From positions 1 through 27,161 of IMG/VR virus record IMGVR_UViG_3300029309_000288: 27,161 nucleotides of DNA, one strand, 5' to 3'. A program made the translations under genes and the position numbers. The notes beneath the pieces are model-generated. The model did no database searches, was not told the origin of the DNA, and was given only the letters and a program-made list of their open reading frames with translations. Of this stretch, positions 1-27,161 are shown piece after piece (the stretch's first letter is position 1; every line of letters starts with the position of its first letter). The DNA is from a virus.

Positions 1-178
1 TGTCACGTCTAGTAGCCTTTCAAAAAATTGACCCCCCCTACCGGCCTAAAAACGGACTTTTTGCCCCAAGATCGGCGTTTCTGAGCCGTGAGAGGGGCTG
101 TTTGTTTGTGTTTGTTTGTAAAGTCCTCGACACAATCGGCCGATGATGCTCTCGGCTTCGAGCCAGAAAGGATCCAAC
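1..178. other. Left-end non-coding region upstream of the endolysin
   Basis: No gene is supported here. The stretch holds a run of seven C at 32-38, a small hairpin of A5/T5 around CGGAC at about 48-62, and a tandem TTTGTTTG repeat at 101-118. It must contain the plus-strand promoter of the endolysin if that gene has its own, but I find no convincing -35/-10 pair. If the molecule is circular, this region joins the purine-rich right end and forms a divergent control region with the rightmost minus-strand promoter. Confidence 0.4.
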
Positions 179-628
179 ATGATTAGTATCTCTTCTTTCG
201 TGACTGGGCTCGTCTCAGTCTTCTCCGCTCCCCTCGAGACTCCCGCCGGCAGAGTTGGCATGACCGACCTCGAGATCGCGATCTGGGTCGTCGAGAGTAA
301 TCAGCATCCCGGAGGCGAGCCCTTCTTCGCCGATCGAGGATTCACGGCGGGGCCTTACTGCATTAGTAAAAACTATCTCGCAGACTCTCGCCTCCCCGGT
401 CGCTGGCCCGATGCGGTCTTTGACTTGGACTTCTCGGTTCAGGTCTTCCGCGCCTATATGGCCCGCTGGGGATCAGACGACCGCCGACCGGATGGAATGT
501 CCCAGGAGGAGTTCTGGGCTCGCCTGCACAACGGAGGCCCCCAAGCCGCCAAGGCGACCGGCAAGAAGAAGGAACGACTCGATCGATACTGGGAGAAGGT
601 CCGGAAGGTCTTGGACCAGTTCGACTAA
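179..628 (+). CDS. i-type (invertebrate/destabilase-type) lysozyme-like endolysin
   Basis: 149-residue protein predicted to cut the peptidoglycan glycan chain at lysis. The i-type lysozyme pattern is visible in order: a Glu in AIWVVES (E39), a following Asp (D52) in about the spacing of the family's Glu/Asp pair, GPYCIS (58-63), RAYMARWG (91-98), the signature HNGGP (117-121), and a C-terminal RYWEKV. The cysteine-rich scaffold of animal members is absent (one Cys only). The ATG at 179 is chosen because AAAGGA lies 6 nt upstream; an in-frame ATG at 143 has no such site. Residues 1-17 are hydrophobic and could be a weak signal or signal-arrest sequence, but lack positive charge. This is the only plus-strand gene and it converges on the large minus-strand operon. 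Family assignment is by eye; the role as endolysin is inferred from phage context. Confidence 0.75.
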   Translation: MISISSFVTGLVSVFSAPLETPAGRVGMTDLEIAIWVVESNQHPGGEPFFADRGFTAGPYCISKNYLADSRLPGRWPDAVFDLDFSVQVFRAYMARWGSDDRRPDGMSQEEFWARLHNGGPQAAKATGKKKERLDRYWEKVRKVLDQFD

Positions 629-680: not shown

Positions 681-1751
681 TCAGGGACACTCGCCCCATT
701 CCGAGAGGACCTTGAGGATCGCCTGGAAGCCGTTATTCGTCTGGGGGTGATAGCGGTAGCCGGCAACATCCGAGAGTACTTGGAGAAGATCCTCGAAGCC
801 GACGATCCCGTCCTCGTTAAGATCGGAGGGACAGGAGTTGTCGGCGTAGTAGTTGACCGAGTATATGGAGGGGTCGCAGGGGTAGCCGTTACCGCATGCC
901 CATCGAATGACCCCGCCCGAAGAGAAGTAGTCCGGCCCCGTAAAGCGAGCGATGTGAAACGATCCCGGATGCTTTTCGCTTTCCCAGTCGACATCGGCAT
1001 CCCATCGAATCAGATCCCCGTAGTCGATTTGAGAGGCCGACTGACAGCATTGTTGGAAGGGAACTTGGCCGGTCGGGAGAGGGAGCCAGAACTTGAGGAC
1101 AGGCGAGTCCATCAGGTCCTTGTGTTGTTGCTGGACCAGAGGGTAGCGGTATTGAGGGTTCGAATTTCCGTACTTCCGACCGACGGGACCATGAAGGATC
1201 CAAGAGTCGCACCAAAGATAATCGAGGCCGATCAGGTCGACTTGTCTCGGACAGCATCCCTCCGGCCCCTCAAACTTCCAGTTCACCGGGGTGAACTTGG
1301 CGCCAAGATATCGAGTTCGCTGGTATGGATTAGCTTGGACACAATCCCAAGGAGTCCCAGGGATGTCGCAAGGAATGACCGTCCCGTCTGGTAGCTCCCA
1401 GTCTCCGAAGCTAGAGCGAGCTTCCTCGTATTCGATGCATTCGAGACAGTTGTCGAGCCAAGGGTATAGATTGTCGTTCCGGTTCTTGAAGACAGGACCT
1501 TCAAGAGCCCATCCGAAGGATCGGGAGGGAGACTCGTTGCCCCGTGTCGACCCGATCATATAGGGAGGCCGAGGATCCCCGTTTGGCTTACTGAAATCTG
1601 GATCGAATCCGGTTTGGATGTAGACGTCGAAAGTCCGGCCGAAAGGCGTCAGCCGGCCAAGATCATCGACCCAGACCGCGACAGCGTCAGGGTCTGAGGG
1701 TTTCGCTCCATTGTCGAGGGAGCCCAGGAGGATCAGTGCGGAAAGAATCAT
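681..1751 (-). CDS. Secreted protein with C-terminal planctomycete-type dockerin-like domain
   Basis: 356 residues. Residues 1-16 form a hydrophobic signal-like segment (MILSALILLGS). The middle (about 20-300) is Trp-, Cys- and Pro-rich with no fold I recognise. The last 50 residues match the dockerin-like tail common in planctomycete secreted proteins: CP, then an EF-hand-type loop with D310, N312, D314, G315 and D321-L322, then a second half ending WGECP. Such tails bind calcium and are thought to anchor or assemble extracellular proteins. The chosen ATG (1751) overlaps the HNH stop as ATGA; an ATG at 1763 would add four residues. It is the last gene of the lysis-side operon, so it may modify the host envelope, aid lysis or block superinfection. 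The dockerin call rests on the visible motif; the function is inference. Confidence 0.7.
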   Translation of the reverse strand: MILSALILLGSLDNGAKPSDPDAVAVWVDDLGRLTPFGRTFDVYIQTGFDPDFSKPNGDPRPPYMIGSTRGNESPSRSFGWALEGPVFKNRNDNLYPWLDNCLECIEYEEARSSFGDWELPDGTVIPCDIPGTPWDCVQANPYQRTRYLGAKFTPVNWKFEGPEGCCPRQVDLIGLDYLWCDSWILHGPVGRKYGNSNPQYRYPLVQQQHKDLMDSPVLKFWLPLPTGQVPFQQCCQSASQIDYGDLIRWDADVDWESEKHPGSFHIARFTGPDYFSSGGVIRWACGNGYPCDPSIYSVNYYADNSCPSDLNEDGIVGFEDLLQVLSDVAGYRYHPQTNNGFQAILKVLSEWGECP

Positions 1752-2113
1752 CTCGTTTCCCATCTTCTGTGACGGACGACCGTCGACATGACCTCCGATG
1801 CGGTTTCGACGCGCGCGAGGTTTGACATTTGTTCACGAGCGGTCTTGTCCTTATGGCATTCCAGACAGATCCCTTGGAGGTTGGTGTATTCGTCACCGCC
1901 GCCCTGAGAGAGCGGGAGGATGTGATCGACCTGAACAGCTTCGGCTTGGTTGCAAACTTTGCAGACCGGATCTCGAGCGAGGATCTGGGCTCGAAGCTTC
2001 ATCCAGCGATGCCCTCGGTTTGGTCGAGATGAGTTGTCTCGACGAGGTTCTGGCCCTCGATCTCGTTTGCCGAGCGGTACGAGTCGACCGTCTCCGGTCA
2101 CTCTCCGAATCAT
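1748..2113 (-). CDS. HNH endonuclease
   Basis: 121 residues with a clear zinc-bound HNH core: CxxC at 51/54, the catalytic-type DH at 63-64, N78, a second CxxC at 83/86 and H87 in CLECHK. HNH enzymes nick or cut double-stranded DNA with one metal ion. In many siphophages a free-standing HNH protein assists terminase during packaging, but those genes usually sit beside terminase. This one lies at the far end of the genome inside the lysis-side cluster. The start ATG overlaps the upstream stop as ATGA, and the stop overlaps the dockerin-protein start as ATGA. It could be a packaging helper or a homing-type nuclease; the sequence does not decide. Confidence 0.85.
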   Translation of the reverse strand: MIRRVTGDGRLVPLGKRDRGPEPRRDNSSRPNRGHRWMKLRAQILARDPVCKVCNQAEAVQVDHILPLSQGGGDEYTNLQGICLECHKDKTAREQMSNLARVETASEVMSTVVRHRRWETR

Positions 2114-2226
2114 TTGACGCAGTTCTCGTCGTGACGACAGAGCTTTTTGAGGACTCGCTGCTTGTGAACCATGCCCAAGACAAAGCCAAGGACGAGGGAG
2201 CCGATTATTGAGAAGACGGTATACAT
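2110..2226 (-). CDS. 38-residue single-pass membrane protein (holin-like or lysis accessory)
   Basis: A very short gene. The protein has one hydrophobic segment at about residues 2-21 (YTVFSIIGSLVLGFVLGMVH) followed by a basic tail with two Cys (KQRVLKKLCRHDENC). Support for a real gene: AAAAAGG about 7 nt before the ATG at 2226, a 22-nt overlap with the end of the upstream membrane-protein gene, and an ATGA stop/start overlap with the HNH gene. The layout resembles small phage membrane proteins of lysis clusters. A holin, pinholin or antiholin role is possible, but no family is recognised. Confidence 0.6.
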   Translation of the reverse strand: MYTVFSIIGSLVLGFVLGMVHKQRVLKKLCRHDENCVK

Positions 2227-2609
2227 GGAGAGACCTTTTTCAGAGTTCTGAGAGTTGAAATAAACATCCCGGCACCGATGACAAGTGCAATGGTCGCAGC
2301 GGGGACAAGTAGAGTTTCGTTCAGTGCCAGGAAGATCGGAGGGACCAGAGAGATCCCGATCCCGATCAATAGAGTCCGTTTTCCAATCGGTCCCGGCATC
2401 AGGACCATCGAGACAATGCCCGCCAAGATCGCAAGAGCCCCCGCGAAGCTCAGAGGCCATAGGGTCGCCGCCACTTGGTCTGATGTCGAGATGCTGGGGA
2501 GGTTGAGGGTCTTCTCCGCCTCCCGAGGGACAAAAGGGAGGCGTAGACCTCCCGAAGATTCGCAGGCCGTGAGAAGGCCGGCAGTCGTCAGCGTTACGAA
2601 CTTTGTCAT
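2205..2609 (-). CDS. Three-helix membrane protein with lipoprotein-type N-terminus
   Basis: 134 residues. Residues 1-16 look like a lipoprotein signal, with LLTAC at 12-16 placing the lipidated Cys at 16. Three hydrophobic helices follow at about 50-70, 79-96 and 99-120, with a basic end (RTLKK). The start overlaps the stop of the preceding coiled-coil membrane protein as ATGA, which suggests coupled synthesis. A TM/coiled-coil protein followed by a lipoprotein recalls i-spanin/o-spanin pairs, but a true o-spanin would not have three membrane helices. A three-helix holin is the main alternative. I see the membrane segments and lipobox; the lysis role is inferred from position. Confidence 0.6.
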   Translation of the reverse strand: MTKFVTLTTAGLLTACESSGGLRLPFVPREAEKTLNLPSISTSDQVAATLWPLSFAGALAILAGIVSMVLMPGPIGKRTLLIGIGISLVPPIFLALNETLLVPAATIALVIGAGMFISTLRTLKKVSPCIPSSQ

Positions 2610-2839
2610 TTGGTCCGCTCCCTAAGATCCCGCTCCAAGGCGTCGAGCTTGTTCTCGAGACGGTTGATCCGTTCACCTTGGAGTTGCTGAGAGACCGCGA
2701 TCTCGGAGAGAAGGCGGTCGTGTCGCTGGTAGGCCATGAAGAAGGCCGAGATGATGGTGACAGAGATCGCAAGAAGACCGACCCAGTCCTTCGAGGAGAG
2801 TTGGACGGATTCGGGACTTGGCTTAGGCGTCTTTTGCAT
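2606..2839 (-). CDS. Small membrane protein with C-terminal coiled coil (i-spanin-like)
   Basis: 77 residues: a polar N-terminus (1-18), one membrane helix (about 20-37), then a charged heptad-rich helix (41-75, including LQGERINRLENKLDALERDL). This is the topology of an Rz-type i-spanin, though shorter than usual. An XhlA-like membrane protein is an alternative, but XhlA usually has the coiled coil before the membrane helix. The ATG at 2839 lies inside the end of the upstream gene (17-nt overlap) without a strong ribosome-binding site. The stop overlaps the next gene's start as ATGA. No family match is certain. Confidence 0.6.
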   Translation of the reverse strand: MQKTPKPSPESVQLSSKDWVGLLAISVTIISAFFMAYQRHDRLLSEIAVSQQLQGERINRLENKLDALERDLRERTK

Positions 2840-8411: not shown

Positions 8412-9962
8412 TCAGGCTATGGCGACAGAGTGACCATCTCCAAGAATTATTTGTCCCCCGAAGCTGGTGATCGTTCCAGAAAAATCAGCAATCGGAGCGC
8501 CTGATAGATCAAGTCTTCCGCCGTTGTAGATTGAGAAAGCATTTAGATCTAATTCTTGGGATGTGCTACCCAAGATGGTCAGGAGCCCCCCATAGATTTT
8601 GTTCGTCGTTCTGGAGATTTCTTTGCCGTGAAAGAGAACATCTCCTCCGAAAATCTGTAGACCGTTGATGTCTGTACCAGCATTTTGGAACAAATATCCT
8701 CCTTCATAAACCTTGACCCCAGAAAGATCATTATTTCCTTGAACGTTCCCCCCGTAACCGACGACCGTGTTCGTTCCGCTTTGTGTCTTGATGATCCCTC
8801 CGGCGCCCGAACTATGTCTAACTTCTAGCCGTTGAATAGAAGTAAGAGAGAGATTTAGGGAGTCTTTGGATTCGACGAATACATCCGTCGCGGTTCCTTC
8901 TATATGAACTCCTCGTCCGTTGCCGGCGATGAATATTTCCCCAATGGATTTGCAGTCGATATTGATCGAGGCGTCTGGAGAGTTGATTGTCAGAAGATCG
9001 GTTGTGATGTCCAGAGGCGCCGAGGAAGTTCCGAAGTCACCAGAGAATCCATCAGAGAATCGAACCTCCCCGGCCGTCAAGGTTCCCAGTGTGATCGAGC
9101 TGGACTTGTCATTGAATACACATTTTTTGTTCGCATCCGGGACAGCGTTGTCCGACCAGTTGTCAGGATCGGAGACGTCGGCAGGATTTCCCCCGGCAGT
9201 CCAGTAGACAGTTGGGAGAGTAAATGTCGGAGGGAATTTCTTGTATTTATGGTTTGATGGTAGATTCTCTTCAAGACCCCATTTCCAAGCGAGATAGCCC
9301 TCAAGCCTTTTCCGATCATCCTCGGTCAACGTAGCGCCCCCGACCAAAACTTCCGCGATATCTCCGGTCATTGGCCCAGCCCCAATCGCCCTAGATCCAA
9401 TATCTAAAACGTTAGAGTTTGAAATACTTCCGTTATCAGTTGTTCCAGTCGTATCCATCGCGGATCCGTTGACGAAGCCGTTGTTGGTGTTGGAGACCCT
9501 TGAGCCAGTAACTAGGACAAACTCGGTACGGCTCCAGTTCCCGGCGTCTTGGACGGGTCCGTTTGCAGTCGATCCCATACATATCCGTAGTTTGCCATTG
9601 GCCAAACAAGACAGGCCGAACTCTTGATGTCCCTTCTCGAAGTAGTCTTGGACTCCAGAATCATCAGTCGACTTCAAAACCGTAGCCATCCAGATGTCAC
9701 CAGTGCCTACGTCTAATTCTGCAATGTCGCCATCGGTGAGGATGTCGTTTGTACCGTCATAGCGAACGACTGGTAAGTCATTCAACTCATCAGTCTGGAA
9801 CGTAGGCTGTCTGACAGCGACCGATTGAGAAACGTCGTTCCCGTTGCCGCTTGAGTCAGTCCAAGAGGTAACAGCGTCCCCATCGGACCCAGTTATAGAA
9901 TCCGCTTTGTACCAGGCAGTAAGAACGCCTGATCCGAGGTTAGATGGAGTCCAGAGAGCCAT
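8412..9962 (-). CDS. LamG-type lectin-domain tail protein (probable receptor-binding protein)
   Basis: 516 residues. The N-terminal part (about 1-240) has the concanavalin/LamG pattern: LTAWYKAD, W-x-DSSGNGND, PVVRYDGTND, IAEVLVGG, then RLEGYLAWKWGL and a closing H-x-Y-x-x-x-PP. This fold binds carbohydrate. From about 250 a module opens with YWTAGGNP, DNWSDNAVPD and continues as a beta-rich, probably beta-helical, repeat to the end. The same module makes up the neighbouring protein. Last gene of the late operon; start and upstream stop overlap as TGATG. A receptor-binding or host-glycan-binding role at the tail tip or on side fibres is inferred. Confidence 0.65.
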   Translation of the reverse strand: MALWTPSNLGSGVLTAWYKADSITGSDGDAVTSWTDSSGNGNDVSQSVAVRQPTFQTDELNDLPVVRYDGTNDILTDGDIAELDVGTGDIWMATVLKSTDDSGVQDYFEKGHQEFGLSCLANGKLRICMGSTANGPVQDAGNWSRTEFVLVTGSRVSNTNNGFVNGSAMDTTGTTDNGSISNSNVLDIGSRAIGAGPMTGDIAEVLVGGATLTEDDRKRLEGYLAWKWGLEENLPSNHKYKKFPPTFTLPTVYWTAGGNPADVSDPDNWSDNAVPDANKKCVFNDKSSSITLGTLTAGEVRFSDGFSGDFGTSSAPLDITTDLLTINSPDASINIDCKSIGEIFIAGNGRGVHIEGTATDVFVESKDSLNLSLTSIQRLEVRHSSGAGGIIKTQSGTNTVVGYGGNVQGNNDLSGVKVYEGGYLFQNAGTDINGLQIFGGDVLFHGKEISRTTNKIYGGLLTILGSTSQELDLNAFSIYNGGRLDLSGAPIADFSGTITSFGGQIILGDGHSVAIA

Positions 9963-10795
9963 CAGGAGATTGTCAGAGTTCGAGCAACATCGGCCAAGAT
10001 CGAGCCCTTGCCCTTGACCGAAATCCCGTTGGTGAAGGTGACGTTCGCGGACCCGTTCCTCTCGTTGATAGTTCCGTCAAATAGGTTCGTCGTCGTAACC
10101 GTTGCCCCGGTCGTAGTATTTTTGGAGAAGTCCAAAAGACTAGGCCGGTCGAAGACGCTGGCGGTTGTGATCGTCCCGCTGGACTGGTGAGAGACGACGC
10201 CTTTACCGTATATGTTGACGGTTGCAGCGCCGGCCCCGGACTCCAGCCGATACTCCCCTCCGGTGATGTTGGCCGTCCCGGTAAGACTTTCCTGAGAGCG
10301 GACAATTCCAGAGTCCATCGTGAGAGAGTTGAAGTTGCCCGCGGCCGCGACAATCAAGACCTCGACCGCCGGCGATCCTGAGACTTCGACGTTTGTAATT
10401 GTGCCAGAATGAACGGAAATTCTTCCAGCCCCCCCGGTAACTCTGAGCGTCGTAACGCTGCTCGAAGATCCAAAAAGGACCGCCGAACTCGCCGCCTTGG
10501 TCTGGGTGATGTGTGCCGTCGTATATGTCCCGTTCAGGTTGACCGTCCCAAACTCAGTCGAGATATAAAGGTCCGTCGCGGATGCAGCTAGGGGGGTGCT
10601 GGTGCTTCCGAGTGTGCCGGTAAAGCCTTCCAGAATTTTGATCTCAGCGACCCCGGTGATCGAGGTTCCGGTAATGGTCTGGGCTCCGGTGTTGAAGATC
10701 ACCGTATCGCTGGCGTCGGGAACGACGCCCCCAGACCAGTTCGATCCAGTCTTCCAGTCGCCATCAGTTGAGCCAGTCCAGAGATAAGTCGCCAT
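9962..10795 (-). CDS. Beta-rich repeat tail protein / adhesin
   Basis: 277 residues, rich in Thr, Ser, Gly and Val. It opens with YLWTGSTDGDW, SNWSGGVVPDASDTVIF, a start also seen in bacterial autotransporter-like and planctomycete surface proteins, then runs into short beta strands suggesting a beta-helix. No signal peptide is present, consistent with a virion protein. The first 75 residues align with residues about 250-330 of the next protein, including FTGTLGSTSTPL against FSGDFGTSSAPL. Probable fibre or baseplate decoration; the family is not certain. Confidence 0.55.
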   Translation of the reverse strand: MATYLWTGSTDGDWKTGSNWSGGVVPDASDTVIFNTGAQTITGTSITGVAEIKILEGFTGTLGSTSTPLAASATDLYISTEFGTVNLNGTYTTAHITQTKAASSAVLFGSSSSVTTLRVTGGAGRISVHSGTITNVEVSGSPAVEVLIVAAAGNFNSLTMDSGIVRSQESLTGTANITGGEYRLESGAGAATVNIYGKGVVSHQSSGTITTASVFDRPSLLDFSKNTTTGATVTTTNLFDGTINERNGSANVTFTNGISVKGKGSILADVARTLTIS

Positions 10796-18872: not shown

Positions 18873-20066
18873 TTAGCCCAGAGTGATGACCTTACAGGCC
18901 GCGGTATTGAGGAGTTCGCCGTCGTTGAACGCCATGCCTCGGACCCCGACTTGGCCGGATGCCGCGAACAGTTCGTCCAGACGGGTGAACTCGAAGCCGC
19001 CGAAGTCGACGATCTGATAGTACGAAGTATCCCCGAAGAGGATCGGCTTCTTGCCAGTTGTCATCGGATCGACGTTGTCCGACTCGTAGACCGGCTTCCC
19101 GAGCAAGGTGTCAGGAGCGGCGCCGAGACCAGGCGTCCAAAGGTAGTTCAAGGATCCCGAAGTGTCGACGGGGTTCTTGAGCTGGCGGATAGCCTTGGCG
19201 GCTTCTGGGGAGATGATCCAGTTCGCAGTTGGAGCGGATCGGTACTGGACCGCGACCGAGTAGAAGAGATCGATAACTTCGTCGCCGGTCACAGCCGTAG
19301 CAGATGCCGCGGTGACTCCCGAGGTAGCGTTGTCGAAAATGCCCCGAGGAGCGTTCGAGTTGTCCCCGGTCAAGAAGCCAGCGAGTTCAGCGGTCGCGAA
19401 GGACCGGGCGAAAGAAGAAGCGATGTATTGCTCGAGTTGAGCCGCGGAGAAGGTTCCGGTGTAGTTGAGGAGTTCCTCCGAGACTTTCATGATCCGAGCC
19501 AGACGGACAGGGTTGAAAGTGACCTGCCCAAACGAGTGATCGCTCTCGTCGATTGCTCCGCCTTCAGCGCCATACGCGGCGGTCCCGATGCTGGACTCGG
19601 TCGCGAATGCGGTCTTCTGGGAGACCTCGACGACTGTACCGATTTGACGCATGAAGTTAGCTTCTTCGCGGAGTTGGCTGATTTGCTGGGATACTTGGGT
19701 AGTCGCCAAGTTTCCGCCTGCACCAGCCGAGCCGATGGAGAGAGCCCGCATTTCACGCTCGGAGAGACGCTCGCCGCATACGTTCTTGAGGAAGGCGTCC
19801 CGGTACTCTTCAGAGTCGATCGTGATGGCGCGCTCTTCGACTTCTGGGGTGAGGTCGACGTTAGCCATCTCGGCTTCGCGAGATGCGGTTCTTTCTTCAA
19901 GTTCGATACGGGTTTCGAGACCGCGGATTTCGGCTTCGATCTTCTCGAATTTTTCGGTCTGGTCAGCGTTCAGGTTAGCGGAGCCGTCATTCTGAGCGGC
20001 GTCCAAGATCGAGCGCTGCTCCATAATCAGAGCGGCGCGCTTCTCTTTGAGTTCGTGAATCTTCAT
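18873..20066 (-). CDS. Major capsid protein, HK97 fold with N-terminal delta domain
   Basis: 397 residues. Residues 1-100 are a charged coiled coil (the scaffold-like delta domain), followed by the likely cleavage region at about 105-115 (RALSIGSAGAGG). The mature shell domain continues with FMRQIGTVVEV, QVTFNPVRLARIMKVSEELL, WIISPEAAKAIRQLK, then YESDNV and FGDTSYYQIVD. AAAGGA lies about 9 nt before the ATG. The protease encoded just upstream would remove the delta domain. Confidence 0.92.
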   Translation of the reverse strand: MKIHELKEKRAALIMEQRSILDAAQNDGSANLNADQTEKFEKIEAEIRGLETRIELEERTASREAEMANVDLTPEVEERAITIDSEEYRDAFLKNVCGERLSEREMRALSIGSAGAGGNLATTQVSQQISQLREEANFMRQIGTVVEVSQKTAFATESSIGTAAYGAEGGAIDESDHSFGQVTFNPVRLARIMKVSEELLNYTGTFSAAQLEQYIASSFARSFATAELAGFLTGDNSNAPRGIFDNATSGVTAASATAVTGDEVIDLFYSVAVQYRSAPTANWIISPEAAKAIRQLKNPVDTSGSLNYLWTPGLGAAPDTLLGKPVYESDNVDPMTTGKKPILFGDTSYYQIVDFGGFEFTRLDELFAASGQVGVRGMAFNDGELLNTAACKVITLG

Positions 20067-21727: not shown

Positions 21728-23631
21728 CAGCGAACCGCCTCGATCCAAGACTTGTCCCCGCTCCGATATGGATTATGCCTAATGTCGGTCCGGACTGGGT
21801 AGTCGCTCCCATCGGTCTCGGTCACGTTGTCGCCTTGGAGGATGAAGGACTCGCCCAGAGCGACGACCTTGTCGGAGAGACTGTTCCGAGAGTCTTCTGG
21901 GGATCGCCATCGGATCTCCTCGACCCCGGCCGCCCGGAAGAGTTCTAGGATAATCGCACCTTCGGCCCGACGGAGTTCATCGTCCAATATGTCCGCGGTG
22001 TGTCTGGTCTTCCAGTCGGCGATCGTGTTGGCGATGTTCCCAGAGCCGCGTAGAGCCGCGAGAGATCTCTGAGACCTACGGGTCGCGAACCTTCTCGCCA
22101 AGTCTTCGAGAGTTCCATCTTGGAGTTGGATCCGCTCTTCGGCGCCGAGTTCGTCTTGGACCGTGAAGGAGAGACCTCGAGCGAGAGTCTCCAGAGTCGG
22201 GAGGATCAGAGAGAACGCTTGTCGCTGATAGTCGACCTCGAAGAAGTCCTCTGCCCAGTCGAAGAAGGTCGTGTCGTCCCGCTTCGCATGTTCGCGAGAT
22301 GCTGCTCGAGACTCGAGGCGAGCCAGTCGCTCGAGGGTGTCCAGCATCGCCGGCGAGGTTTGTTCCCGTACTCTCGAGCGATCGTCCTCGACTGCTCGGA
22401 TCTCGAGGGATCGCATCTCTTCCGGCATGTCGGGCTCTTCGTCCGGAGTAAGTGCTTCCATGTTGAGCGGAGTCAGATACTTGTCGCCGATCTCGCCCAG
22501 AGGATCCAAGTTCTCGATCGCCCGGATGTCGTTCGCCGAGAGGAAGCCCGCTTGCCGGCCGGTCTGGTAAGCCTTGAATCTTGTCTCGAGATCTCCGCGC
22601 AAAAGGTGATCGAAGGAGAACTCGGCGTATACATCGCCGGCCGAGGGGAGAAGTTTGGACTTGATCTCCGACTCGATCCGTCTGGCCCAAGGTGTCAGGG
22701 TGTGAACGACGAAGGCCCGATTGAGTTCGCCAATCGACCCATAGGATCCGGCGTTCTCGAGGTCGGCCAGCATTGACGGAGGGACCCGGAAGATCCGAGC
22801 GATCTCGGCGACTTGGAAGCGTCGAGTCTCGAGGAACTGAGCGTCGTTCGGGGTGATGCTGATCGGCTTGAAGTCGATCCCAGCTTCGAGCAAGGCGACC
22901 CGAGCCGAGTTGCCGCTTCCCTTATGGATCTTCTCCCAAGATCGACGGAGGTTCTGGAAAGCCTCGTCCGACATCTTCCCAGGTACCGAGAGGATGCCGG
23001 AAGGCGTGCCCGAGTTGCCGAAGTACGCGGCGCCATACTTCTCCGCCGCCAAGCCCAGACCGATCGTCTCTCGAGCTAGACCGATCGGGGAGTATCCGAC
23101 GAGACCGACTTGGCCGAGAGCCCGGATGTGAAGGACCTCCTCGGAAGTGAGAGCCCCTTGGACAGTTCCTCCGGTGATCTCGTAGGCAACCCGACCCGAT
23201 TCCGTCATCTTGACATCGATATATCGGGGATCGAGCGGAGTAAGACCCGTGACTTGGCCGGCGTTGTTCCTGGAGATGTAGGCGTAGCCGTTCCCGTATG
23301 TGCAAGCATGCGAGACGATGGTTTCGATCATCATAAAGGACGTCAGATTCGGATCGGCTTGATCCCGCAGGATCGAGTAGATCGGGAGGTCAGTCGCTTG
23401 TCGCCGGCCGTCTTCCGTCTCCCGGTAGGTAATCAGAGGTAGAGCCGCAAGGGATTCCGAGATGATCCGGACACACGAATAGACCGCGGTCAGAGCCAGA
23501 GCTGAGGTCTCAGAGACCTCCATCCCAGACGAGGCAGGACTACCCAGAAAAGAGAACTTGTCTGGAGATTTGAAGTTATGCCGAACTTCTTCGGCGGGTT
23601 TGGTTCGTCGGAAGATATCTCTCAGAGGCAT
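21727..23631 (-). CDS. Portal protein (HK97-type) with MuF-like C-terminal extension
   Basis: 634 residues. Residues 1-400 are a typical HK97/PF04860-type portal: TAVYSCVRIISESLAALPL, CTYGNGYAYI, ALGQVGLVGYSPI, RFQVAEIARIFRVPPSML, then LETRFKAYQTGRQAGFLSANDIRAIENL. The portal ring drives packaging and joins head to tail. The last 200 residues carry TADILDDELRRAEGAI, a VEEIRWRS strand and DKVVALGESFI, resembling a degenerate MuF (SPP1 gp7-like) domain without its usual Cys. The start overlaps terminase by 10 nt. Confidence 0.88.
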   Translation of the reverse strand: MPLRDIFRRTKPAEEVRHNFKSPDKFSFLGSPASSGMEVSETSALALTAVYSCVRIISESLAALPLITYRETEDGRRQATDLPIYSILRDQADPNLTSFMMIETIVSHACTYGNGYAYISRNNAGQVTGLTPLDPRYIDVKMTESGRVAYEITGGTVQGALTSEEVLHIRALGQVGLVGYSPIGLARETIGLGLAAEKYGAAYFGNSGTPSGILSVPGKMSDEAFQNLRRSWEKIHKGSGNSARVALLEAGIDFKPISITPNDAQFLETRRFQVAEIARIFRVPPSMLADLENAGSYGSIGELNRAFVVHTLTPWARRIESEIKSKLLPSAGDVYAEFSFDHLLRGDLETRFKAYQTGRQAGFLSANDIRAIENLDPLGEIGDKYLTPLNMEALTPDEEPDMPEEMRSLEIRAVEDDRSRVREQTSPAMLDTLERLARLESRAASREHAKRDDTTFFDWAEDFFEVDYQRQAFSLILPTLETLARGLSFTVQDELGAEERIQLQDGTLEDLARRFATRRSQRSLAALRGSGNIANTIADWKTRHTADILDDELRRAEGAIILELFRAAGVEEIRWRSPEDSRNSLSDKVVALGESFILQGDNVTETDGSDYPVRTDIRHNPYRSGDKSWIEAVR

Positions 23632-25265
23632 CGGATTCCTCGGTCTCCATACACTTCATCCGGATCGACTTCCGGTTCTTGTGACTCCATAACGCGACCG
23701 ATCGCCATTACAAGAGCGACGATACCGTCTATTCGTTCGGCATTCTTACGCGCGCCGCTGGTCTTCTTGGTTGGCTTGATGTTCCCGGCCGGGTCCATCT
23801 CGACCCGAACTTGGGAAGCCTGAGCCCGAAGGATCGGGTGTCCGCCGTGTCTGAGTCGCTTCGATAGGACCAGTTCCTCAAGCCGTTTGGAGGGTCCGCT
23901 CATCGAGCGATACCCTTGGCCCATGAAGGTGACTGGAGCGCCTTCTTTGTCGAGTCTGGTCGCGATGTCGGTCGCATTCCATCGGTCGAGGGTGACTTCC
24001 CGTACCCGGTACTTCTCAACGAGTTCCATGATCTTCGCCTCGACGAAGGCGTAGTCGGTGACGACTCCCGGCGTAAGTTTGATGTGACCCTCGTGAGCCC
24101 AAGCTCGATAGGGAATCCGATCTCGTCTCTCTCTGGACTCGATATTGTCTTCGGGAAGAAAGAAGTATGGAAGGACCGAGATCGACCCGTCGTCATCGGG
24201 AAAGACCGCGACGAGCGCCGTAGTGTCGGCGGTTGAGCCGAGGTCGAGACCGAGCCAGCATTCTCGCCCGACGAGACTTTCGGAGTCGATCGACTCTTCG
24301 TTCATCTCGTCCCATCGATCCATCGGGAGCCATCTGGTCTCTTGTTCGGTCCATACGTTGAGATGTAGCCGGAGGAAGGTGTTGACATACGCGGGGACTT
24401 CTTTCGCCCGTTGACATTCTTGCTCGAGGTAATCCTTCGAGATCGAGACTCCGAGACAAGGGTTGGCGATCTTCCAAGTCTCCGGGTCGGTCCAGTCCGA
24501 TCCCTCCGGCGCCGCATAGACGACCGGGAGAAAGCGGGGATCCTTGATGGTTCCGTCTCGGACCTTGAGCGCGTAGTCGTGTTGTTCCCATGCGATCGAT
24601 GTCCTCGAGTGTCCGGCCGTCGTGATCGCGATCGAGAGAGGTTGAGCTCTGGCGCCCATCGAGGTGTGAAGAGTGTCCCAGAGATCTCGGTTCGGCCAGA
24701 CATGAACCTCGTCCGCGATCAGACCGGAAAGGTTCATCCCGTGTTTCGTGCCGGCATCGGACGAGATGACTCGAAAAGAACTCTGAGAATGATCGAAACG
24801 GATCTCCCGACGGTAGACCTTGGACATCTTCGAGAGCATCGGATCGCCCTGGATCATGCCCTTCGCGACATCGAAGACGATCGCCGCTTGATCTCGGTCG
24901 CCGGCCGCGGAGACGACTTCCGCCGATTGTTCTCCATCGCCGTACAGGAGATAAAGCCCAAGCCCGGACGAGATCGTCGACTTCCCATTCTTCCGAGGGA
25001 TCTCGAGCCAGACCCGCCGGTATCGTCGGAGCCCCTTCTCGTCGACCCATCCGAACATCGTCGAGAGGAGATCTCGTTGCCAAGGAAGAAGGGTGAAAGC
25101 CTCCCCGGCTTGGAGCCCCTTCTGGTGAGTGAGGAACTTCTCGAAGAAGCCGATCGCCCGGTCCGCTTTGGTCTGGTCGAAGATGAAGCCGTCCGAGTCT
25201 CGGAGCGGGTCGTAGCCGGCGAGATCGCTCGGAGGTTCAGAGTCCAAGGATCTGCTTCTTCTCAT
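23622..25265 (-). CDS. terL: Terminase large subunit
   Basis: 547 residues. The ATPase domain has a Walker A-like PRKNGKST (90-97), Walker B LIADE (180-184) and a coupling ITTAG motif near 212-216. The RNase H-like nuclease domain has D339 in WLGLDLGS, DRW further on and a final Asp in ERIDGIVALVMA. These are the marks of HK97-type large terminases, which cut concatemers and pump DNA into the prohead. The start ATG at 25265 overlaps the small subunit by 29 nt; a TTG at 25247 is an alternative. Confidence 0.93.
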   Translation of the reverse strand: MRRSRSLDSEPPSDLAGYDPLRDSDGFIFDQTKADRAIGFFEKFLTHQKGLQAGEAFTLLPWQRDLLSTMFGWVDEKGLRRYRRVWLEIPRKNGKSTISSGLGLYLLYGDGEQSAEVVSAAGDRDQAAIVFDVAKGMIQGDPMLSKMSKVYRREIRFDHSQSSFRVISSDAGTKHGMNLSGLIADEVHVWPNRDLWDTLHTSMGARAQPLSIAITTAGHSRTSIAWEQHDYALKVRDGTIKDPRFLPVVYAAPEGSDWTDPETWKIANPCLGVSISKDYLEQECQRAKEVPAYVNTFLRLHLNVWTEQETRWLPMDRWDEMNEESIDSESLVGRECWLGLDLGSTADTTALVAVFPDDDGSISVLPYFFLPEDNIESRERRDRIPYRAWAHEGHIKLTPGVVTDYAFVEAKIMELVEKYRVREVTLDRWNATDIATRLDKEGAPVTFMGQGYRSMSGPSKRLEELVLSKRLRHGGHPILRAQASQVRVEMDPAGNIKPTKKTSGARKNAERIDGIVALVMAIGRVMESQEPEVDPDEVYGDRGIRCL

Positions 25266-25838: not shown

Positions 25839-25864
25839 TTTGATTCCTTTCGGGGAAAGAGTGA

Positions 25865-25882
25865 GCCCCTCCGGAGAGGGGC
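25865..25882 (-). terminator. Repeated-type hairpin terminator, copy 1
   Basis: On the minus strand GCCCCTC / GAGGGGC with TCCG loop, followed by TCACTCTTTCC. The T-tract is weak, so it may attenuate rather than stop. The surrounding 30-35 bases are nearly identical to those at 26265. Confidence 0.65.
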
Positions 25883-25889
25883 GGGGATG

Positions 25890-26234: not shown

Positions 26235-26264
26235 TTTCGGGTTCCTTTTCTGGGGAAAGAGTGA

Positions 26265-26282
26265 GCCCCTCCGGAGAGGGGC
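26265..26282 (-). terminator. Repeated-type hairpin terminator, copy 2
   Basis: The same GCCCCTC / GAGGGGC stem with TCCG loop as copy 1, in the identical context GGGGAAAGAGTGA on the plus strand. It lies 6 nt after the stop of the upstream gene. Confidence 0.65.
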
Positions 26283-26287
26283 GGGGG

Positions 26288-26593: not shown

Positions 26594-26629
26594 TTCTGGG
26601 TTCCTTTCTGGCTTCGTTGCCATGCTCTA

Positions 26630-26658
26630 AGTATATTTGCATCTTCTTAGCGTGTCAA
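26630..26658 (-). promoter_or_regulatory. Consensus sigma70-type promoter P2
   Basis: On the minus strand TTGACA (26658-26653), 17-nt spacer, TATACT (26635-26630). The -35 is perfect and the -10 matches five of six. It sits directly behind terminator copy 3 and drives the 26288-26593 gene. Confidence 0.9.
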
Positions 26659-26679
26659 CAGTCTTTGAAGAAAAATTTG

Positions 26680-26707
26680 AAAAAAAAAAGCCCCTCCGGA
26701 GAGGGGC
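26680..26707 (-). terminator. Repeated-type hairpin terminator, copy 3 (strong)
   Basis: Same GCCCCTC / GAGGGGC stem with TCCG loop, here followed on the minus strand by nine or more T, a textbook intrinsic terminator. It ends the rightmost cassette. Confidence 0.9.
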
Positions 26708-26713
26708 AGGGGA

Positions 26714-26980: not shown

Positions 26981-27019
26981 TTGTTGGTTTCCTTTTCTTG
27001 GCTTGATTGCCATGCCCTA

Positions 27020-27048
27020 AGTATATCGGCATCTTATTAGTGTGTCAA
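27020..27048 (-). promoter_or_regulatory. Consensus sigma70-type promoter P1
   Basis: On the minus strand TTGACA (27048-27043), 17-nt spacer, TATACT (27025-27020). It is nearly identical to P2 from about -45 to the ribosome-binding region, including GACTGTTGACAC and the downstream ATGGCAA. It drives the rightmost cassette. Confidence 0.9.
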
Positions 27049-27161
27049 CAGTCTGAGAAGAAAAAAGTGAAAAAAGGGGGAGAGGTAGAAAAGGGGGCTC
27101 AGATGGGGAAAAGAGGGAGAGGGGCAAAACCTCAAAAAGTGAGGTCCGCTTTTTTGAGCCA
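27049..27161. other. Right-end purine-rich region
   Basis: No gene is supported. From about 27050 to 27130 the plus strand is almost all A and G, with runs of G5 and A6. A small hairpin CCTCA / TGAGG lies at about 27130-27144, followed by TCCGC and six T. The strand bias, and the position next to the only divergent promoters, make it a candidate for an UP-like element or a packaging site. Confidence 0.4.

Follow-up and report, generated by a model that had tools for sequence, protein, structure and literature searches.

Proteins anchored by a GC-type dockerin-like tail (NF041540) are widespread in Phycisphaerae, and the phage protein described here ends in a tail that resembles theirs in its Cys-Pro start, its D-x-N/D-x-D-G-x-V-x-x-x-D loop, its two helices and its C-terminal W-G-x-C. 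It departs from them in giving no match to the curated model, in having lost the second calcium loop, as some host tails have, and in being joined to a viral body. The cellulosomal dockerin type I (PF00404) shares with the phage tail the type of F-hand calcium loop and the pair of helices; the phage tail, however, carries one loop instead of two and has no Pfam match, and cohesin (PF00963) was found in none of the seven candidate host MAGs, some of which are incomplete and which represent a presumed host. Llp-type phage lipoproteins are exported and held on the host envelope, where they protect against superinfection and against loss of progeny to debris. Llp of phage T5 is reportedly a surface exclusion lipoprotein with a lipid anchor and FhuA as the receptor. 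Both it and the dockerin-tailed protein are encoded by phages, but the latter would be held by a candidate protein anchor in place of the lipid. Substrates of the PEP-CTERM/exosortase system (PF07589, TIGR02595) are resembled by c8, a protein linked to ours in some phages, in the leader, the C-terminal PAP, the hydrophobic stretch and the Arg-rich end; c8 differs in being phage-encoded and in matching below the curated cut-offs. The phage endolysin LysBT1, known from a single prophage, combines an amidase body with a C-terminal S-layer homology domain (PMC12285257). It is thus likewise a phage protein with a host-type surface-anchoring domain at its C-terminus (PMC12285257), whereas the dockerin-tailed protein has another anchor, a body without known fold match and a distribution over several phage lineages. 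The body is viral, and the tail is homologous, by sequence profile, to GC-type dockerin-like domains. Among the listed titles and abstracts of the open literature on superinfection exclusion, planctomycete phages, PEP-CTERM and dockerin, none described a phage protein with a tail of this kind, and a term search in one planctomycete-phage paper returned no mention of dockerin.

The window, i.e. the whole stretch of 27,161 nucleotides that was analysed, is a virus record of IMG/VR and encodes a capsid protein of the HK97 type as well as a terminase. Its relevant features are:

681-1751, minus strand: gene of the dockerin-tailed, putatively secreted phage protein, 356 aa, stop codon within the coordinates
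1701-1751, minus strand: signal-like hydrophobic N-terminus, residues 1-17 (from homolog hydrophobicity; helix 2-10 in the model)
843-1700, minus strand: Cys-rich, beta-rich body, residues 18-303, without known fold match
684-842, minus strand: dockerin-like tail, residues 304-356, one calcium loop and a loop-less second helix, apparently closed by C307/C355
789-824, minus strand: calcium-binding loop D310-x-N-x-D-G-x-V-x-x-x-D321, invariant or conserved in 67 homologs
1748-2113, minus strand: HNH endonuclease gene
2110-2226, minus strand: 38-aa membrane protein
2205-2609, minus strand: small protein with lipobox and several TM segments, lysis-region candidate, conserved in 9 fetched loci
2606-2839, minus strand: Rz-like coiled-coil membrane protein, weak (phrog_739, E 0.0097)
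143-628, plus strand: divergent, destabilase-like lysozyme candidate (PF05497, E 8.5e-5, below the Pfam cut-off)
18873-20066, minus strand: HK97-type major capsid protein (phrog_10, E 1.1e-76)
23622-25265, minus strand: terminase large subunit (phrog_9, E 7.8e-174)

The plus strand of 681-1751 contains stops, and the gene is on the minus strand. It begins with ATG 1751, where its start codon and the stop codon of the HNH gene upstream are fused in the tetranucleotide ATGA; an alternative ATG lies at 1763. The product is composed of the hydrophobic N-terminus, the Cys-rich body and a 53-aa tail (NSCPSDLNEDGIVGFEDLLQVLSD...GFQAILKVLSEWGECP) with one perfect calcium loop. Counted from Met 1751, CP occupies residues 307-308, D310, N312, D314 and D321 stand where the initial annotation had placed them, and the protein does end in WGECP, as it had read. 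The loop is a real feature of the tail: D310, E313, D314, G315, V317, G318, D321 and C307 are invariant among the 67 homologs of four subfamilies, and this conservation rules out a chance motif. C355 is kept in every sequence of the 67-row alignment except one truncated row, and the conservation of both cysteines suggests that a disulfide closes the tail. The data do not support the idea that the window acquired the gene recently: its G+C content is 0.566 against 0.549 for the whole window, and in one close phage the protein is 95% identical at a synonymous divergence of 0.57.

The tail had been called planctomycete-like at the outset, and the genome searches bear this out. A scan of GTDB for the pattern CPxDL[N/D]EDGxVG, with one genome for each of 84,980 species, returned 21 stretches, 19 of them in Planctomycetota and many in marine Phycisphaerae; flavobacterial proteins matching the pattern were set aside for their unrelated bodies and single-repeat tails. 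In seven Phycisphaerae MAGs the family profile matched by the tail and never by the whole body, with 22-119 tail matches per genome in six of the seven, so that the phage tail is homologous to dozens of proteins per marine Phycisphaerae genome. These host tails carry either two loops or one loop plus a loop-less second helix exactly like that of the phage. When the phage and Phycisphaerae tail profiles were aligned with hhalign, the probability was 99.4% (E 1.1e-21), and the C-terminal similarity on which the initial annotation depended thus exists. Its comparison with curated families turned out otherwise, since no Pfam or NCBIfam model matches the tail and it is not a canonical dockerin type I. 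Neither the window tail nor the tails of subfamily 3 match NF041540 at E 10, and PF00404 finds none of 55 members at E 10, nor the tail alone. The calcium loop and the terminal G-x-C of the GC-type dockerin are conserved in the 67-row alignment; of the two loops of dockerin type I only one is present, the second repeat retaining only its helix. The Phycisphaerae tails themselves match NF041540 and PF00404 mostly below the curated cut-offs, four of five tails tested scoring 14-25 bits against the NF041540 cut-off of 29 bits.

Phage-like tails were present in 11 of 26 genomes of the MED-G178 family at E 1e-6 and, in a class-wide sample at E 1e-4, in one of 61 genomes (the centre genome). NF041540 tails were more broadly represented, in 22 of the 61 class-wide genomes versus none of 14 control genomes. 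A host origin of the body was sought and not found: none of 150 genomes from the Phycisphaerae class matched it, while the same query, as a control, does match in virus records. The carriers are ocean viruses whose hosts, judging from the tail, are probably planctomycetes of the class Phycisphaerae, and the tail would have been copied from the GC-type dockerin-like anchoring system of the host. The family may help to connect contigs with Phycisphaerae, of which few members are in culture, and it makes testable what GC-type dockerin-like tails bind.

Relatives of the whole protein came from viral metagenomes, where a search had been recommended. IMG/VR contains more than 80 of them at 57-95% identity, and the tail pattern together with follow-up searches added two more distant subfamilies, sf2 and sf3 (overall identity about 30-37%), the paralog cluster c65 and an additional body type seen in locus L212. 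No significant relative was detected in 50,697 phage records, and INPHARED matches to a cyanophage tail fibre (E 5) are at chance level. The whole protein matched no Pfam, NCBIfam or PHROG profile (for PHROG, none at E 0.1). A sequence search of the PDB with the single protein gave only S100/EF-hand proteins and a dockerin (E 0.4-2.4), and with the family profile only S100 and a carbonic anhydrase (E 0.2-0.65). The tail is the most conserved part of the family, as sf1 and sf2 share 29% identity in the body and 74% in the tail, and sf1 and sf3 share 27% and 57%, respectively. A median omega of 0.07 over 27 pairs, and of 0.038 between the window gene and its nearest relative, indicates strong purifying selection, and the family is far more conserved than other genes of its carrier phages.

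A strongly hydrophobic N-terminus (9-residue Kyte-Doolittle above 1.8) was found in all 65 homologs with a start versus 8% of 815 other phage proteins, and cysteine makes up 3.9% of the homologs versus 0.7% of other phage proteins; leader and cysteine content both point to export. The signal-like N-terminus noted initially therefore holds as regards hydrophobicity, but Lys or Arg occurs within the first eight residues in only 14 of 65 homologs. The leader of the window protein (MILSALILLGSLDNG) has neither at these positions, so its signal is hydrophobic yet not a textbook one. Considered together with the tail homology, these properties make export and anchoring via the host system a well supported prediction, and we regard it as quite probable that the protein is exported and host-anchored. 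The proposal that a virus exports a protein with the anchoring tail of its host is also well supported, at the level of sequence, by the conservation of the tail and by exchange breakpoints that respect it.

The AlphaFold model, built from 67 sequences, has a mean pLDDT of 82.8 and a pTM of 0.84; an earlier model from 55 close homologs (pLDDT 58) was too weak and its Foldseek matches were discarded. The tail is predicted at pLDDT 91-97 as a helix pair (319-330 and 340-350), and the body is beta-rich. The Foldseek comparison of the body proposed in the initial annotation yielded no significant structural match, with none better than E 0.1 in the PDB and none better than 0.006 in BFVD, and no catalytic motif or enzyme fold emerged from these structure searches. 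The adhesin-like top PDB matches (SspB, SpaP, CNA) were set aside at a probability of about 0.1 or less.

Most carrier contigs have few or no other genes in common with the window. T4-like carriers are recognised by a gp23-like head protein (phrog_138), portal (phrog_213) and tail tube (phrog_45), and T7-like carriers by phrog_449, phrog_267 and phrog_457; HK97-like carriers were found as well. In T7-like phages the gene is located near portal or capsid genes. On a quick tree of 55 members, with coarse phage-type labels, the label changes at least 27 times, which is below random yet far above what vertical descent needs. Homology between phage types can end at the boundaries of the gene: L069 and L075, of different type labels, share 90% DNA identity over 992 bases of the gene and one 68-base spot elsewhere, and L063 and L072, again of different labels, share 85% over 998 bases with little or nothing alike beside the gene. 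As judged from these comparisons, the gene has apparently been exchanged among very different phages of what seems to be one host lineage, to which this secreted family would be tied by its surface anchor. The label of a moron, given at first, undersells a gene that occurs in at least three phage lineages and adjoins the major capsid gene in T4-like phages.

Downstream of gp23, T4-like phages carry between one and three genes of the dockerin-tailed kind, followed by c8; where the contig extends that far, tail tube and UvsW-like genes come next, UvsW having been named by eye. In the near-identical T4-like phages L042 and L212, identity is 97.9% over a stretch that starts in the portal region and ends 13 nt into the gene. 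The sequences are then unrelated until the tail-coding part, from approximately whose first base the alignment resumes at 89%; the position of sf1 in L042 is taken in L212 by another body together with sf2. Between L053 and L212 the break falls at this leader too, and the sequences join up again within the c65 tail. Both pairs of breakpoints thus indicate that a constant leader and tail frame interchangeable bodies. A late-promoter-like octamer lies 27-36 nt upstream of the gene in five of nine T4-like loci (binomial P about 6e-8, for a motif chosen after looking), and from gene position and promoter-like motifs we infer late expression. In T4-like phages the c8 gene (L078:7652-8290, L042:11076-11708 and 11 more loci) is a neighbour of the dockerin-tailed gene, and it keeps its position regardless of the body type. 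The N-terminus of its product is signal-like and the C-terminus PEP-CTERM-like (VPAPASVALGGLGILMGGRRRRY); in three of the four members tested PF07589 matches the extreme C-terminal end (E 0.002-0.011) with 16-19 bits against a cut-off of 20.7, and exosortase is encoded in six of seven candidate host MAGs. These observations suggest that unrelated phages remodel the exterior of the infected cell with shared, swappable parts. In some T4-like phages the gene immediately before the dockerin gene, on its upstream side, belongs to cluster c56 (L041:615-1016, L077:7406-7813, L078:5190-5585) and encodes a small heat-shock-like protein, recognised by eye.

We propose that the phage makes the protein late in infection, that the host Sec route would export it and that the tail would hold it on the host surface. 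There the body, rich in Cys and in beta structure, would most likely attach to some surface component and mask it. Such masking could keep competing phages from adsorbing (superinfection exclusion) and progeny from re-adsorbing to the dying cell, to debris or to sister cells. The surface target would differ from one body type to another, unrelated lineages that share a host would exchange bodies, and T4-like phages would string several of them together with a second, PEP-CTERM-like surface protein. To this main reading, a late, exported and host-anchored phage protein that most likely excludes competitors or stops re-adsorption of progeny, we assign a probability of roughly 0.5; the blocking role by itself falls slightly short of an even chance. 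The initial annotation had offered a lysis aid, a superinfection blocker or a glycan binder, and among these allele swapping appears to fit the blocker best. More broadly, a surface blocker best accommodates body exchange, conservation within each type, sharing across phages and absence from hosts. Against it stands the strong conservation of the body within a subfamily, unlike a fast arms-race protein, and against the export model the lack of a positive n-region in most leaders. In a more tentative extension, which we hold to be somewhat less probable, the gene would be a new kind of surface-display cassette: leader and host-mimicking anchor stay constant, the body between them can be replaced, and phages of the T4, T7 and HK97 types that infect a single bacterial lineage trade the cassette with one another. 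Alongside a phage-encoded mimic of the exosortase sorting signal of the host, it would set the exclusion type of the cell surface.

The same late position in T4-like phages, and the lysis-type genes beside the gene in the window, would also suit a secreted lysis or release factor whose body acts on the outer membrane or extracellular matrix for virion escape while the tail holds it at the envelope. The lysis-type operon described initially is nevertheless only partly as stated: membrane, lipobox/TM and weakly Rz-like genes do lie upstream on the same strand, but the lysozyme candidate is on the opposite one, and the Rz and lysozyme assignments of these neighbours are weak. As the T4-like gene adjoins the major capsid gene and the T7-like one lies near portal or capsid genes, as no catalytic motif or enzyme fold is seen, and as allele swapping and several paralogs per phage would be odd for such a factor, we consider this role quite unlikely. 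The strong purifying selection and the spread across phage types, both of which are also seen in cyanophage photosynthesis genes, together with the tightest constraint on the tail, are what an auxiliary host-surface protein might show, one that boosts the infected cell (nutrient or particle capture, attachment) or drives the dockerin-tailed proteins of the host off their receptor. The lack of any relative of the body in the 150 class genomes argues that no host function was borrowed, and conservation of the body would be unnecessary in a protein that did nothing but compete; such an auxiliary protein is therefore unlikely, though a hydrolytic or nutritional role is still conceivable. Adjacency to major capsid and tail-tube genes in T4-like phages, and proximity to LamG-type virion proteins in others, could finally mean a decoration or fibre whose dockerin-like tail binds the host tail receptor during adsorption. 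The export-type leader of every homolog with a start, the many cysteines, and the occurrence in T4-, T7- and HK97-type phages with unrelated virions make a virion component very unlikely.

Several neighbours were noted in passing. The lysozyme candidate at 143-628 has relatives in 18 fetched loci; destabilase is an i-type lysozyme and would be unusual in a phage. Virion-type proteins rich in beta structure, LamG-like ones among them (window 8412-10795, as well as cluster c1; 8412-9962 matches phrog_10356, E 3e-29), have relatives in about 30 otherwise different phages and are near the dockerin gene in some loci. Cluster c3 (22 loci, e.g., L095:2124-2591 and L005:2009-2431), a small CxxC-starting protein with an internal hydrophobic stretch, often adjoins the dockerin gene in T7-like and window-like phages; its C-terminus resembles PEP-CTERM/LPXTG ends (VPEVG...KRRR), with no profile match of note. 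At the right end of the window a GC-rich hairpin-like repeat (GCCCCTCCGGAGAGGGGC) recurs between small genes at about 400-base spacing (25852-25886, 26252-26286 and 26677-26711), two copies being identical over 35 nt. A 77-nt direct repeat, 86% identical (26609-26685 and 26999-27075), lies at the upstream ends of two small minus-strand genes and perhaps represents shared promoter regions.
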